From assembly GCA_030452365.1 (NCBI GenBank), contig JAKDMK010000051.1, forward strand, positions 1 to 10,081: DNA of 10,081 nt, read 5' to 3'. The DNA comes from Nitrococcus sp. (GTDB lineage: Bacteria; Pseudomonadota; Gammaproteobacteria; Nitrococcales; Nitrococcaceae). A program made the translations under genes and the position numbers. The notes under the pieces are model-generated. The model had not been told where the DNA came from and searched no databases. It was given only the letters and a program-made list of their open reading frames with translations. Below, in pieces: positions 4,347-9,440 of the stretch; position 1 is the first letter of the stretch, and every line of letters begins with the position of its first letter.

Positions 4347-4660
4347 CTAGGGAAGGTGCACGCCTTCTATGGCCAACATTTCCGTGAGGCGGATCAGCGG
4401 CAAGCCGATCAAGGCCGTGGGGTCATCGCCCTCGATCCGTTGCAGCAGCACGATCCCAAGGAGCCGATTATCAGAGCGGGCTCATTGATCGGCCTTGCGG
4501 CTCGCGCCTTGGCAATGGCCAGACGCTTGACATAGGCGGCCGGCTCTTCGCCGCGGCGGGGCGTCTCGTCGATGCGGCCGGGTATTTGCTCGAACGGTAG
4601 TCCCAAGCGGCGCAGCAGCTCGGCGCGGTAGGGCGAAGCGGAGCAGAGTATCAATCGCAT
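4347..4660 (-). pseudogene. maf: Broken Maf/YceF-family nucleotide pyrophosphatase (internal deletion)
   Basis: Maf proteins hydrolyse non-canonical or modified nucleoside triphosphates; E. coli YceF acts on m7GTP. The ATG at 4660 has a good ribosome-binding site (AAGGAG, five bases away). The first 47 residues are normal: MRLILCSASPYRAELLRRL with the SxxR motif, then VDETPR-like IDETPRR and the strand LIIGS. Right after LIIGS the sequence jumps to the family's C-terminus in another frame ([29 protein letters not shown], ending at the stop 4347-4349), which matches E. coli GITLFERLEG and LVGLPLIAL. About 90 residues (about 270 bp) of the usual 190-200 are missing, including the aspartate that follows IIGS and is the catalytic base in this family. 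Translation from the start runs out of frame to a stop at 4409-4411. Loss of function is very likely. It converges on prc, ten bases apart. A possible -10 (TATGAT, 4698-4693) precedes it. Confidence 0.88.
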
Positions 4661-4840
4661 GAGGACTCCTTCGGCAGTGCATTTGGGCTCCTATCATACT
4701 GCCCTTGCGCCGGGTTGACCGGATAGACCGGAGTCGAATTGCGAGCGCAGCGATCGATGGGGGGTGGCTGAGCTGAATGCCGCCGGTTGCCGTCGCCGCT
4801 GCGGCGATTGCGAGCGCAAGTCGGTCTTGAATTCTATTCT
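4661..4840. other. Gap between maf remnant and rpmF promoter
   Basis: No gene is supported here. The 12-mer ATTGCGAGCGCA occurs twice in direct orientation (4738-4749 and 4807-4818), 69 bp apart. A possible minus-strand -10 (TATGAT, 4698-4693) and the maf Shine-Dalgarno AAGGAG (4671-4666) lie on the left side. TTGACC at about 4716 on the plus strand has no good -10 partner. Some of this may be eroded yceD or maf sequence that is no longer recognisable. Confidence 0.5.
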
Positions 4841-4869
4841 TTGACAGCACGGAAGCTCGCAATTATTAT
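4841..4869 (+). promoter_or_regulatory. Near-consensus sigma70 promoter for the yceD remnant/rpmF transcript
   Basis: TTGACA (4841-4846, 6/6) and TATTAT (4864-4869, 5/6) are separated by exactly 17 bp, and the stretch just upstream (4827-4840) is AT-rich like an UP element. The start of transcription would be about 4876. It is the strongest promoter visible in the window and points at the yceD remnant, rpmF and, without an obvious terminator, plsX and the fab genes. It probably was the original yceD-rpmF promoter. Confidence 0.75.
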
Positions 4870-4916
4870 CGAACGTTTTGCACGAACCCTTTTAAAGTCG
4901 ATCGATAGCGCACGGC

Positions 4917-5080
4917 TCGATCAGGATTGTGCGCGCTTTGCCGCCCCTGGCGATGCACGAAAGCGGTTGGGTGTACGCTCAGAGCGGCGGTTACTTCGGC
5001 GCGCCGGTCCGGCAGCTGTGGTGCCGCATCACCAGAGTCCATTCGCCGTGCTGGAACAGCTCAAGATGGGGGACGTTTGA
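4917..5080 (+). pseudogene. yceD: C-terminal remnant of YceD (DUF177), frameshifted
   Basis: YceD is the roughly 170-residue DUF177 protein normally encoded just before rpmF; its family is linked to accumulation of large-subunit rRNA. Here only pieces of the C-terminal third are recognisable, in different frames. [13 protein letters not shown] (about 4926-4965) corresponds to IILALPVVPVHDS in E. coli and lies in the frame that also contains rpm[11 protein letters not shown] (5036-5065), in another frame, corresponds to the conserved C-terminal PNPFAVLASLK and ends at a TGA at 5078. A possible fragment AASPES lies in the third frame just before it. The N-terminal two thirds, with the expected CQRC-like cysteines, are absent: only about 240 bp separate the promoter from rpmF. 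At least one frameshift and a large deletion are needed to explain this. The match rests on short motifs plus position. Confidence 0.72.
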
Positions 5081-5114
5081 GCGCCGGTCGCACGAATGTA
5101 GGAGACACCGGATA

Positions 5115-5294
5115 ATGGCTGTTCAAAAGAGTCGGAAAAGTCCATCGAAACGGGGAATGCGCCGCGCACACGATGCGCTCAAGCGGCCCACGCTTTCGGT
5201 GGATCCCACGACCGGTGAGACGAATCGTCGCCACCATATTTCTCCTGGTGGCTACTACCGGGGCCGCCGGGTGATCTCAGGTGACGAAGACTAG
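5115..5294 (+). CDS. rpmF: 50S ribosomal protein L32
   Basis: L32 (bL32) is a small basic protein of the large ribosomal subunit. The product is 59 aa (E. coli 57). The start [20 protein letters not shown], then [25 protein letters not shown], closely follows the family; the ATG has AGGAGA nine bases upstream (5100-5105). The zinc-binding cysteines of some bL32 forms are absent, as in E. coli. It lies between the yceD remnant and plsX, the usual arrangement. The end is odd: the last residues SGDED differ from the E. coli end, and the TAG stop (5292-5294) takes its last two bases from the left end of an inverted-repeat element, so the original terminus may have been altered by that insertion. 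Confidence 0.97.
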
Positions 5295-5343
5295 GGCCTG
5301 TTGACATCCGCCCACGGCGGCGCGGGTGAACGTCAACAGGCCC
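5293..5343. repeat. 51-bp solo-end derivative of the inverted-repeat element
   Basis: AGGGCCTGTTGAC (5293-5305) and GTCAACAGGCCC (5332-5343) are perfect inverted repeats around a short GC-rich centre. The left about 31 bases match the left end of the 267-bp element at 8420 with few changes, and the right about 19 match its right end, so this looks like the same element with its interior deleted. It can form a long hairpin in the rpmF-plsX RNA, but no T-tract follows, so it is not a classical terminator. No clear target duplication is seen. It overlaps the rpmF stop codon. Confidence 0.85.
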
Positions 5344-7466: not shown

Positions 7467-8414
7467 ATGAGCGAGAACAGCAAGCTTGCAATCGTTTTCC
7501 CCGGTCAGGGTTCCCAGTCGGTCGGTATGCTGAGCGATCTGAGTAAGGCCTTCCCGACCACCGTGCGTGGCACGTTCCAGGAAGCTTCTGCGGCTTTGCA
7601 AGTTGACCTATGGGAAATGGTACAAAACGGTCCGCAGAGCGAGCTCAACCGTACCGAATGCACCCAACCGGCCATGCTAGCGGCCGGGATCGCCGTATGG
7701 CGGTGCTGGAGGGCGCAGGGTGGCGCGACTCCAGTCGTGTTGGCCGGCCACAGCCTTGGTGAGTATACCGCGCTGGTTTGTGCCGGGGCGCTTGATTTCG
7801 AGGTGGCCACCCGGCTCGTTGCCGATCGCGGCCGCATCATGCAGGAGGCGGTGAGCGCAGGCCACGGGCGCATGGCAGCGATCCTCGGCCTGGATGATGA
7901 TCAGGTCCGTCTTGTGTGTCAGGAAGCGGCTCAGGGTGAGGTGGTCGAGGCGGTCAATTTCAATGCACCGGGGCAAGTGGTTATCGCCGGTTGCACGGCG
8001 GCGGTCGAACGCGCCGTTACCCTGGCGCACGCAGCGGGAGCGAAGCGCGCGTTGGAATTGCCGGTCAGTATACCCTCCCACTGCGCCTTGATGCGGCCGG
8101 CCGCGGCAAAGCTTGCGCAGTGTCTTGAAGCCGTGCAGATTAACGCGCCGGCGCTCCCGGTATTGCATAACGTCGACGTCTCTGTAGCGGTGCGCCCGCA
8201 GACCATCCGCGATTGCCTCGTTAAGCAGTTGCACAGCCCAGTGCGCTGGGTTGAAATCATACGGCGAATGGCCGCAGATGGCGTGGAACGGGTGATCGAA
8301 TGTGGCCCCGGCAAAGTGCTCGCGGGCCTCAACCGCCGCATCGACCGGCGTATGGACGTGGATGCGGTGTTCGATTCGGCATCGCTCGACAAGGCACTGC
8401 TAAGAGGGAGCTGA
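7467..8414 (+). CDS. fabD: Malonyl-CoA:ACP transacylase (FabD)
   Basis: FabD transfers the malonyl group from CoA to acyl carrier protein, supplying the two-carbon donor for elongation. The product is 315 aa (E. coli 309). It has VFPGQGSQSVGML at the start, the nucleophile S96 in GHSLGEY, VADRGRIMQEAV carrying the carboxylate-binding arginine, NFNAPGQVVIAG, the catalytic H205 in PSHCALM, and GPGKVLAGL near the end. Two start codons are possible. ATG 7467 has GGA five bases upstream, while ATG 7461 would add two residues without a better site. The gap after fabH is 22 bp. The stop is followed after five bases by the 267-bp repeat element. Confidence 0.95.
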   Translation: MSENSKLAIVFPGQGSQSVGMLSDLSKAFPTTVRGTFQEASAALQVDLWEMVQNGPQSELNRTECTQPAMLAAGIAVWRCWRAQGGATPVVLAGHSLGEYTALVCAGALDFEVATRLVADRGRIMQEAVSAGHGRMAAILGLDDDQVRLVCQEAAQGEVVEAVNFNAPGQVVIAGCTAAVERAVTLAHAAGAKRALELPVSIPSHCALMRPAAAKLAQCLEAVQINAPALPVLHNVDVSVAVRPQTIRDCLVKQLHSPVRWVEIIRRMAADGVERVIECGPGKVLAGLNRRIDRRMDVDAVFDSASLDKALLRGS

Positions 8415-8419
8415 GCACA

Positions 8420-8686
8420 AGGGCCTGTTGACATTCGCCACGGCGTCGCGTTGCTGCCCAAAATCCGGCCAGGCAAGGCGCGAGGAGAGAAGTTTAGTGT
8501 TACTAAATGAACGACGAGCAACGCCGCCTGGGCGGATTTTGGGCGCAACCCGAAGGGACGGGGCCATTTTCCCGCAATCCTGCGTTGTCGCTTGCTTATG
8601 TAGCAATACTACACGGCGCTCGCGACGCCTTGTCTTGCGAGAAAATGGCCGCCGTCGCGGCGTCGTGGCGAACGTCAACAGGCCCT
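8420..8686. mobile_element. 267-bp palindromic MITE-like element in the fabD-fabG gap
   Basis: The ends AGGGCCTGTTGAC (8420-8432) and GTCAACAGGCCCT (8674-8686) are perfect inverted repeats, and the match continues imperfectly to about 31 bp. Inside lie two hairpins, each about 89 nt. Hairpin A spans 8456-8544 with an 18-bp arm, CCCAAAATCCGGCCAGGC, having one mismatch. Hairpin B spans 8562-8650 with the 16-bp arm GGCCATTTTCCCGCAA, also one mismatch. Hairpin B read in reverse resembles A (shared CAAGGCG, TAGT, CTA and CAACGC positions). No transposase or credible protein is present; frames open across it are a by-product of the palindromes. A shortened relative lies at 5293-5343. Structure and two copies suggest a non-autonomous mobile repeat mobilised in trans. 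No obvious target duplication is visible (left flank GAGCACA, right flank AGCTATG). Confidence 0.82.
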
Positions 8687-8690
8687 AGCT

Positions 8691-9440
8691 ATGGCGTTCT
8701 CGCTGGATAGTCAAATCGCGCTCGTTACGGGAGCGAGCCGGGGCTTGGGACGGGCGATTGCGCTCACCCTAGGTGAGGCGGGCGCGACGGTCGTGGGCAC
8801 GGCTACTACCGAGGCGGGAGCGCAGCGAATCTGCGGCGAGTTGGCGCAGGCGGGTATCGCCGGGGCGGGTATGGCGCTCGATGTGACGGACCGCGAGCAG
8901 GTGCCCACCGTGGTGACCACCATGGGCCGGCGTTTTGGTAGCCCGACGATACTAGTAAACAATGCCGGTGTTACGCGTGATGCGCTGTTTCTGCGCATGC
9001 GCGAGGAAGATTGGGATGTTGCCATTGACACGAACCTCGGCTCGGTCTATCGGATGAGCAAGGTGTGTTTGCGCGCGATGATCAAGGCCCGCTACGGCAG
9101 GATTATAAACATCGCCTCGGTAGTGGGGCTTACTGGCAACATCGGGCAGGGCAACTATGCGGCGGCCAAAGCAGGAATCATGGGTTTGAGTAAGTCATTG
9201 GCGCGCGAGGTGGGTTCCAGGGGCATTACGGTGAATACCGTGGCGCCGGGATTTGTTGCTACCGATATGACCGATTCGCTGCCCGAGGCACAACGCGAGG
9301 CGTTATTGGTGCAGACACCCCTTGGGCGGCTGGGCCAACCGCAGGACATCGCTACCGCGGTGCTCTTCCTAGCCACTCGGGAGGCGGGTTTTATTACTGG
9401 CGAGACATTGAATGTCAACGGCGGTCTGCACATGGCCTGA
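8691..9440 (+). CDS. fabG: 3-oxoacyl-ACP reductase (FabG)
   Basis: FabG is the NADPH-dependent short-chain dehydrogenase that reduces 3-oxoacyl-ACP to 3-hydroxyacyl-ACP in each elongation cycle. The product is 249 aa (E. coli 244). It has the dinucleotide-binding TGASRGLG at residues 13-20, LVNNAGVTRD around 88-97, and the catalytic set N115, S143, Y156 and K160 (GNYAAAKAG), then VAPGFVATDM and a C-terminal ITGETLNVNGGLHMA. The ATG begins only four bases after the inverted-repeat element, so the usual leader has been replaced. The only Shine-Dalgarno-like sequence is CAGG at 8679-8682, inside the element's end. Its translation may depend on element-derived sequence. Confidence 0.97.
   Translation: MAFSLDSQIALVTGASRGLGRAIALTLGEAGATVVGTATTEAGAQRICGELAQAGIAGAGMALDVTDREQVPTVVTTMGRRFGSPTILVNNAGVTRDALFLRMREEDWDVAIDTNLGSVYRMSKVCLRAMIKARYGRIINIASVVGLTGNIGQGNYAAAKAGIMGLSKSLAREVGSRGITVNTVAPGFVATDMTDSLPEAQREALLVQTPLGRLGQPQDIATAVLFLATREAGFITGETLNVNGGLHMA

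Follow-up and report, generated by a model that had tools for sequence, protein, structure and literature searches.

A Conserved Hairpin Core Between the Ends of Different Insertion Sequences: a MITE-like Element in the fabD-fabG Gap of Nitrococcus

Introduction

Names of bacterial MITEs refer to their ends, and the usual view of these elements is that they are insertion sequences (IS) in decay. The closest described systems are summarized here from the accessible portions of the published accounts. MITEAba12, mobilised in trans by an IS resident in its host, measures 113 bp and is associated with 9-bp duplications (PMC6382973). Pseudomonas fluorescens carries the MITE-like intergenic repeats R0, R2 and R200, of which R0 and R2 (89 and 110 bp) share their ends with a resident IS (PMC2718517). 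QMITE2 of Coxiella has a core of 113–145 bp and duplications of 7–9 bp, and its transcript is predicted to fold strongly (PMC10969869). Many palindromic repeats and MITEs are found together in the single genome of Thiomargarita nelsonii, whose hupL MITE has 10-bp direct repeats (PMC4853749). The IS5-type element ISAba31 has the ends GGGTGTGTTGACACTT and AAGTGTCAACAGACCC, a transposase with pfam13340 and pfam13586, and a 2-bp duplication (PMC4776018).

We describe here an element located in a window of 10,081 bp of Nitrococcus sp. (contig JAKDMK010000051.1). Its hairpins are a conserved module that is found across bacterial classes and between the ends of different IS, a feature that had escaped the first-pass annotation of this DNA. 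Literature searches by end sequence, tip sequence and topic, with slight coverage of subscription journals, retrieved no description of this core or of an exchange of ends around it.

Results

Position and fold of the element

The element occupies positions 8421–8685 on the plus strand of the window (265 bp, GGGCC...GGCCC). It lies between fabD, with its stop codon at 8412–8414, and fabG, with its ATG at 8691, so that 6 and 5 nt remain on the two sides. The first-pass annotation, which delimited it as 8420–8686 and counted 5 and 4 nt, was correct in stating that it fills the gap almost completely. The terminal inverted repeats around two large hairpins described at that stage correspond to a terminal stem of 29 bp and two 100-nt hairpins, to which a mini-hairpin of 7 nt is added; the fold thus consists of the stem and branches of 100, 7 and 100 nt. 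The outer part of the left arm of the stem (8421–8449, plus strand) is the IS5-type terminal inverted repeat GGGCCTGTTGAC, and nearly the same end is present on a transposase-bearing IS from another genome (L039). The right arm (8657–8685, plus strand) carries the GTCAACAGGCCC end. Hairpin unit H1 (8450–8549, plus strand, 100 nt), defined by the fold, also matches the covariance model R1 with an E-value of 8.9e-20, the unit itself belonging to the training set of R1. The mini-hairpin, with a GAA loop (8550–8556, plus strand), separates H1 from hairpin unit H2 (8557–8656, minus strand, 100 nt), which is inverted with respect to H1. A conserved apical domain is located at 8474–8526 (plus strand) in H1, where the motif C-AA-GG ... 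GC-AA-CGCCG has AA bulged on both arms, and at 8580–8632 (minus strand) in H2.

The segment 8416–8690 has a minimum free energy (MFE) of −166 kcal/mol when folded as RNA (z = −11.4) and of −99.5 kcal/mol when folded as DNA (z = −11.1), and none of 200 shuffled sequences was as good in either case. No gene is evident in the element, whose two mechanical ORFs, 86 and 92 aa long, overlap each other. A TA dinucleotide (8686–8687, unstranded) flanks it on the right and AA (8419–8420) on the left, so that a TA duplication is not intact at this copy. Among 27 full copies with IS5-type ends, 21 have TA on both sides, a count in which a CTAG palindrome blurs the distinction between a duplication and an extension of the ends.

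The shortened second copy reported previously does exist, as a solo hairpin of 50 bp (5294–5343, plus strand), but is made up of just the two end arms and lacks the hairpins. It lies before plsX, where congener G003 has a degenerate form at the same site and no copy was seen in congeners G001, G002 and G004. Elsewhere in the window, a maf-like gene on the minus strand (4349–4660 / 4660–5110) appears to be truncated, its N-terminal part being open and then broken. A DUF177/yceD gene usually precedes rpmF, and no intact ORF for it is evident in the 4349–5110 region.

Copies in the host genome and empty sites in congeners

The host genome (G000) is a draft of 3.16 Mb in 656 contigs. BLAST with the element gave at least 45 matches in it (40 of 149 first-look candidates were scored), and the 13-mer of its end, with at most one mismatch, gave 65 + 74 = 139 matches, compared to 1 + 1 for the reversed pattern used as a control. 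These counts establish that the element belongs to a repeat family, as had been proposed. Among the ten best places, two (C69 and C521) are complete and internal, while the other eight extend to 2 nt or less from a contig end, in keeping with the tendency of repeats to break assemblies. Solo hairpins of ~50 bp similar to that at 5294–5343 account for at least 16 end pairs, 35–42 nt apart from start to start, among the matches listed, and are taken to be end-only derivatives. Genome contigs and viral contigs contain no match to an exact 25-mer of the window copy, and phage records likewise gave no match.

The first-pass annotation had proposed a comparison of the fabD-fabG gap in close relatives, and had stated that a single-copy sequence conserved at the same site in distant relatives would indicate a fixed regulatory structure. 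Instead, the sequence is multicopy, and the gap is empty in all four congeners (G001–G004), as it should be for a MITE: the fabD stop and the fabG start are separated by 2 nt in G001, G002 and G004, and by 3 nt in the nearest congener, G003. The absence from all four points to a recent insertion rather than to a fixed regulatory structure of the fab operon.

IS5-type ends and the candidate transposase

The ends of the window element match those of an IS5-type insertion sequence located in another genome. This candidate partner (L039, 7985–8853 of a viral contig) is a complete IS, bounded on either side by CTAGGGTCTGTTGAC, whose transposase of 249 aa contains PF13340 and PF01609. One viral contig (L037/L038) carries a full-length element ∼2.4 kb from a transposase gene with a left end of the L039 type, for which a right end was not found. 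The host genome contains one fragment of an L039-like transposase (E = 1.3e-17). No intact partner IS was found there, and neither of its two PF13340 places has an element end nearby. At E ≤ 0.001, an L039-like transposase was detected in just 8 of the 26 carrier genomes; the 18 without such a hit include G385, G133 and G595, which carry IS5-ended copies.

The earlier suggestion of a MITE moved by a transposase encoded elsewhere is thus supported by the multiple copies, by the TA flanks of most copies, by the empty sites and by the terminal repeats shared with an autonomous IS, although that IS lies in another genome; we infer the movement in trans from the shared ends. Similarly, the search for a transposase gene bounded by the same ends succeeded with L039, but in the host genome it yielded only fragments without ends.

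Three other observations concern such ends. In congener G001, a broken relic of an IS5-type transposase (L294, 281351–284677) has at both ends TGTTGACATTC, which is shared with the window family, and could be a former partner of that family. A 289-bp sequence (L040, 5503–5791) has IS5-type ends on both sides without the hairpin core, and looks like an internally deleted IS. The sequence GGGTCTGTTGAC occurs twice in a paper on a bacterial toxin-antitoxin system (PMC12457610).

Different ends around one core

BLAST matches inside the core led to copies in which the same core is bordered by quite different ends. The ends are therefore not of the IS5 type throughout the family, and three other end classes match IS630-type elements, one strongly (L096) and two with weak scores (L053 and L092). 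The end of L096 matches, at 27 of 28 positions (E = 1e-3), the end of a Marinobacter IS630 whose inverted ends are 1,179 bp apart. The end of L053 matches the end of the IS630-like IS885 of Cupriavidus (28 of 33, E = 0.7) and that of a second Cupriavidus IS630 (27 of 31, E = 0.2), both with inverted ends 1,110 bp apart. The end of L092 is identical over 18 of 18 positions (E = 6) to the left end of an IS630-like element of the ISBmu8 family from Caballeronia, which has a DDE_3 transposase; the right end of this partner is less similar (17 of 22). As database scores the L053 and L092 classes are weak, and they are counted because their matches are located at IS630 ends.

These searches also hit places without an IS annotation. 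The L053 end has matches in six plasmid records, of which three carry annotations other than IS (LysR, hypothetical) and two are the same plasmid. Of the six records matched by the L096 end, four Vibrio records are hit in a hypothetical protein and one at an unannotated place; no transposase is annotated around the one Vibrio match inspected.

The families with other ends are also multicopy, with 43 (G074), 6 (G221), 22 (G328), 47 (G136) and 30 (G259) end matches and none for the controls. Plasmids, viral contigs and the IS5-like copies of G328 yielded no partner of the GAGCCTGTCTGTGAATAAATC ends, and viral contigs none of the AGGGGGCGTTCTCAATTAA ends. In viral sequences, 1 stretch was found with the ACTAACC ends and 14 with the GTGTAGTGCGTCACT ends, all lacking an inverted end pair at IS distance. 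Among 16 stretches examined for IS-length end pairs in G074, G385, G133 and G328, the sole longer pair spans 2.7 kb in G074, and none of the four ORFs displayed for it resembles a transposase; the other stretches contain single ends or pairs of MITE size. Five IS5-type copies of G328 (L290, L298, L305, L310 and L315) have CTAGGTTCTGTTGACGTTTC ends and are each 40% identical to the query, whereas the hairpin elements of the same genome carry GAGCCTGTCTG ends.

The same core is thus found between the ends of unrelated IS, which suggests that the core, rather than the apparently borrowed ends, defines the family.

Distribution and architecture of the core

BLAST with the window copy found matches in 12 of 59 relatives, and BLAST with a copy from Halomonas in 40 of 369 class-level genomes, which represent 33 of 272 genera; in each genome two candidates were scored. 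A set of 38 full-length copies was assembled from an automatic list of 42 rows, by keeping 27, dropping 15 as chance or duplicate pairs (L040:5503–5791 among them), and adding 11 elements with other ends. These copies are 264–279 bp long, with terminal stems of 27–35 bp. The three-branch fold is present in 35 of the 38, the mini branch is exactly 7 nt long in 29, and the two hairpins are inverted relative to each other in 36. In the other two (L084:1450–1716 and L076:1344–1608) both hairpins have the same sense, which could reflect an inversion of one of them.

The single hairpin unit was then represented by the covariance model R1, built from the 64 units of alignment A1 (76 units before, and 72 after, a length filter). 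Its E-values are rough, and those of its own training sequences were not counted as evidence. At E ≤ 0.001, R1 has matches in 133 of 398 phylum-level genomes (69 of 213 genera); by hand count, 84 of these reach 1e-8, many of them from a single family (f210). Of 29 loci taken from this search, 27 give a paired unit. The paired architecture was examined in these 29 loci and in 30 of 119 from another search. Together, the 59 loci contain 116 R1 hits, of which 106 form 53 opposite-sense neighbours, all in the order plus then minus, and 48 of these pairs have a 7-nt spacer. The remaining 10 hits have no partner, and four loci are single-unit even at E ≤ 1. No same-sense neighbours within 40 nt were seen in the 59 loci when the list was checked by eye, the script having counted opposite-sense pairs only.

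The architecture of a stem with branches of 100, 7 and 100 nt occurs in many gammaproteobacterial genera and in a zetaproteobacterium. The copy in a record from the Zetaproteobacteria (L251) is complete, has the same ends and shows a plus-then-minus pair 7 nt apart. The tip motif is present in Thiodiazotropha, Alcanivorax, Thiogranum, Nevskia, Gilvimarinus and Nitrococcus, and full-length copies reside on plasmids of Azotobacter, Pseudomonas aeruginosa and Halomonas.

Several structural variants were observed. Three copies of ∼296 bp (L100:1468–1762, L108:1467–1764 and L150:3456–3751) have 31–34 nt rather than 7 nt between the hairpins. In L031 and L032, of the Azotobacter/Halomonas/P. aeruginosa type, the orientation of the mini-hairpin with respect to the A-type hairpin is the reverse of that in the window type. 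Four copies of G074 with GAGCCTGTCTG ends (L275, L276, L277 and L278) each lack a different part of the structure, ∼50 bp in length; they look like independent palindrome-associated deletions.

Covariation of the stems and conservation of the tips

In alignment A1, 90.7% of the cells are paired, compared to 60.4% after shuffling and 38–41% after sliding of the partners. The score for covariation reaches 0.717, compared to 0.201 and 0.11–0.20, respectively. The slides keep the relatedness of the units, which the shuffles do not. Double changes are found at 26 of 28 pairs, a result that is weak alone, as the shuffles average 23.9 and 21 of 500 reach 26.

Such complementary changes could arise without selection. 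Correction of palindromes by template switching is established, and an ordinary MITE family in which template switching between the hairpin arms during replication maintained perfect palindromes, with a core devoid of function, would show them together with nearly equal numbers of G.T and A.C mismatches, as found below. The same process should, however, also erase bulges. The tip is bulged, one arm reading C-(A)A-GG and the other AA-CGC, and all five invariant alignment positions fall within the tip domain; the bulged AA columns are kept on both arms in nearly all of the 64 units, while the flanking stems are still paired. Since the loci had been found through the tip, its conservation was assessed on 19 units lying outside the match by which they were fetched. 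In these units, the identity is 0.59 in the tip, 0.41 in the stem and 0.80 in the core columns of the AA bulge, so that the tips are more conserved than the stems in units that played no part in detection. The length, the 7-nt spacer and the inverted order are also kept across genera and classes, with few exceptions. Template switching could thus maintain complementary arms but not the bulges that persist, which argues for selection on the shape, and we regard a functionless core as unlikely.

GNA triloops are very stable in DNA, as is the complementary UNCG in RNA. On one of the two strands, the loop of the mini-hairpin conforms to GNA in 30 of the 38 elements (GAA 19, GGA 7, GCA 3, GTA 1) and in 69 of 88 elements of a larger set.

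Constraint at the level of DNA or RNA

The larger set of 88 elements comprises the 38 copies and 50 others, obtained from the 53 pairs after three with a terminal stem shorter than 25 bp were dropped. It contains 8,619 Watson-Crick pairs and single mismatches of the types G.T (115), A.C (96) and other (190). RNA is expected to tolerate G.U far better than A.C. When the 1x1 mismatches are read on the sense strand of the genes, in 29 co-directional contexts, G.T and A.C are equally frequent (39 and 39). When they are oriented by the mini-hairpin (69 elements) the counts are 75 and 82, and when oriented by the A-type hairpin (71 elements) 67 and 82. The lack of an excess of G.T over A.C in all three orientations indicates that the constraint appears to act on DNA; selection at the RNA level is disfavoured, and a function in RNA was rejected as the main explanation because this asymmetry is lacking.

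A structured RNA that acts in transcripts, either in the fab mRNA or as an sRNA of its own, as a processing site, terminator or regulator, would account for the very stable RNA fold (z = −11.4) and for the gene contexts. A simple ORF caller assigned 29 of the 88 elements to co-directional, 20 to tail-to-tail and 5 to head-to-head contexts, with 34 unclear, so that co-directional genes flank 29 of the 54 elements with a clear context. Three terminator-like sites in 8300–8750, against 0.4 expected, could also count in its favour, but all are on the minus strand; the sense strand has none, and the region has no sigma-70-like promoter. The orientation of the mini-hairpin relative to the gene sense is evenly divided (10 and 9). 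No Rfam family reaches its gathering score, and the sole sub-threshold hit in 8400–8710 is to a miRNA family, at 20.7 bits compared to the required 114. The earlier alternative of a structural element of the fab mRNA lacks support in particular, as the element is missing from the fab operons of all four congeners and the sense strand shows no excess of G.U. Taken with the mismatch counts, these results make a structured RNA very improbable. A REP/BIME-type repeat spread by a REP-associated tyrosine transposase is scarcely credible: the element is palindromic and multicopy, with its placed copies intergenic, but it is ∼265 bp long and its ends match elements with DDE transposases, whereas REPs are 20–40 bp long with GTAG or CGTC tags, according to the accessible part of the source (PMC3733652).

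Discussion

The anatomy of the element is that of a TA-target MITE: it is short, has no transposase gene and is present in many dispersed copies. The window copy is probably a TA-targeting, non-autonomous transposable element that entered the fabD-fabG gap once the lineage had split from its closest sampled congener, and in which a folded-DNA core has been kept while the ends were exchanged. An IS5-type transposase would mobilise it in trans, as judged from the similarity of the ends.

A broader proposal, which we advance tentatively and consider close to an even call, is that the core is an old selfish DNA fold distributed throughout the Proteobacteria. The fold itself would be the unit of inheritance, and the element a transposase-agnostic satellite of IS that borrows and exchanges TA-target ends of the IS5 or IS630 type. 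We infer both the mobility of the element and a function of its core from the patterns described above. With less certainty, the core may act as folded DNA, in the form of a hairpin or cruciform, probably by holding the ends together or by recruiting a host protein. The folded core would shorten the distance between the two ends, bind a host protein at the bulged tips, or both, and it could then work with whichever TA-target transposase supplies the ends. Selection would act on the folded shape of the DNA by way of the element's own spread.

At the fab operon, the insertion also separates the end of fabD, where GGGAG stands just before the fabG start in G003, from the start of fabG. We speculate that a folded mRNA could bring the two together again.

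The core outlives its ends, and its homology extends over different genera and at least two classes, its folded shape being kept while the sequence of the stems is free. If the core aids mobility, these elements would be hitchhikers adapted to many transposases and not products of decay, and they would allow the effect of folded DNA on transposition to be addressed directly. The elements also break assemblies and enter operons, as seen here where fabD is parted from fabG.

MITEAba12 and other bacterial MITEs resemble the element in being non-coding and multicopy, with terminal repeats identical to those of an IS; a multi-hairpin core common to differently ended copies is a feature of the element that the accessible part of the MITEAba12 report does not mention (PMC6382973). 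R0 (89 bp) and R2 (110 bp) are shorter than the element, and R200 (320 bp) can be set beside it by its description only, as far as the available text goes (PMC2718517). QMITE2 is likewise a MITE with a strong predicted fold, and a structural core shared across genera is not mentioned in the portion of its account available (PMC10969869). The hupL MITE of Thiomargarita is similar by description only, in the part of the paper at hand, and has 10-bp direct repeats in contrast to the TA flanks of most copies of the element (PMC4853749). The ends of ISAba31 are close to those of the window element, and its transposase domains are of the types found in L039; ISAba31 differs in being autonomous and encoding its transposase, and a hairpin core is not reported for it in the accessible part of the source (PMC4776018). 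The IS630-type elements (IS885, the ISBmu8-like element and the Marinobacter IS630) have ends that resemble those flanking other copies of the core. They differ from the element in being autonomous, with a transposase of another family than the IS5-type enzymes, whose gene fills the span between their ends.
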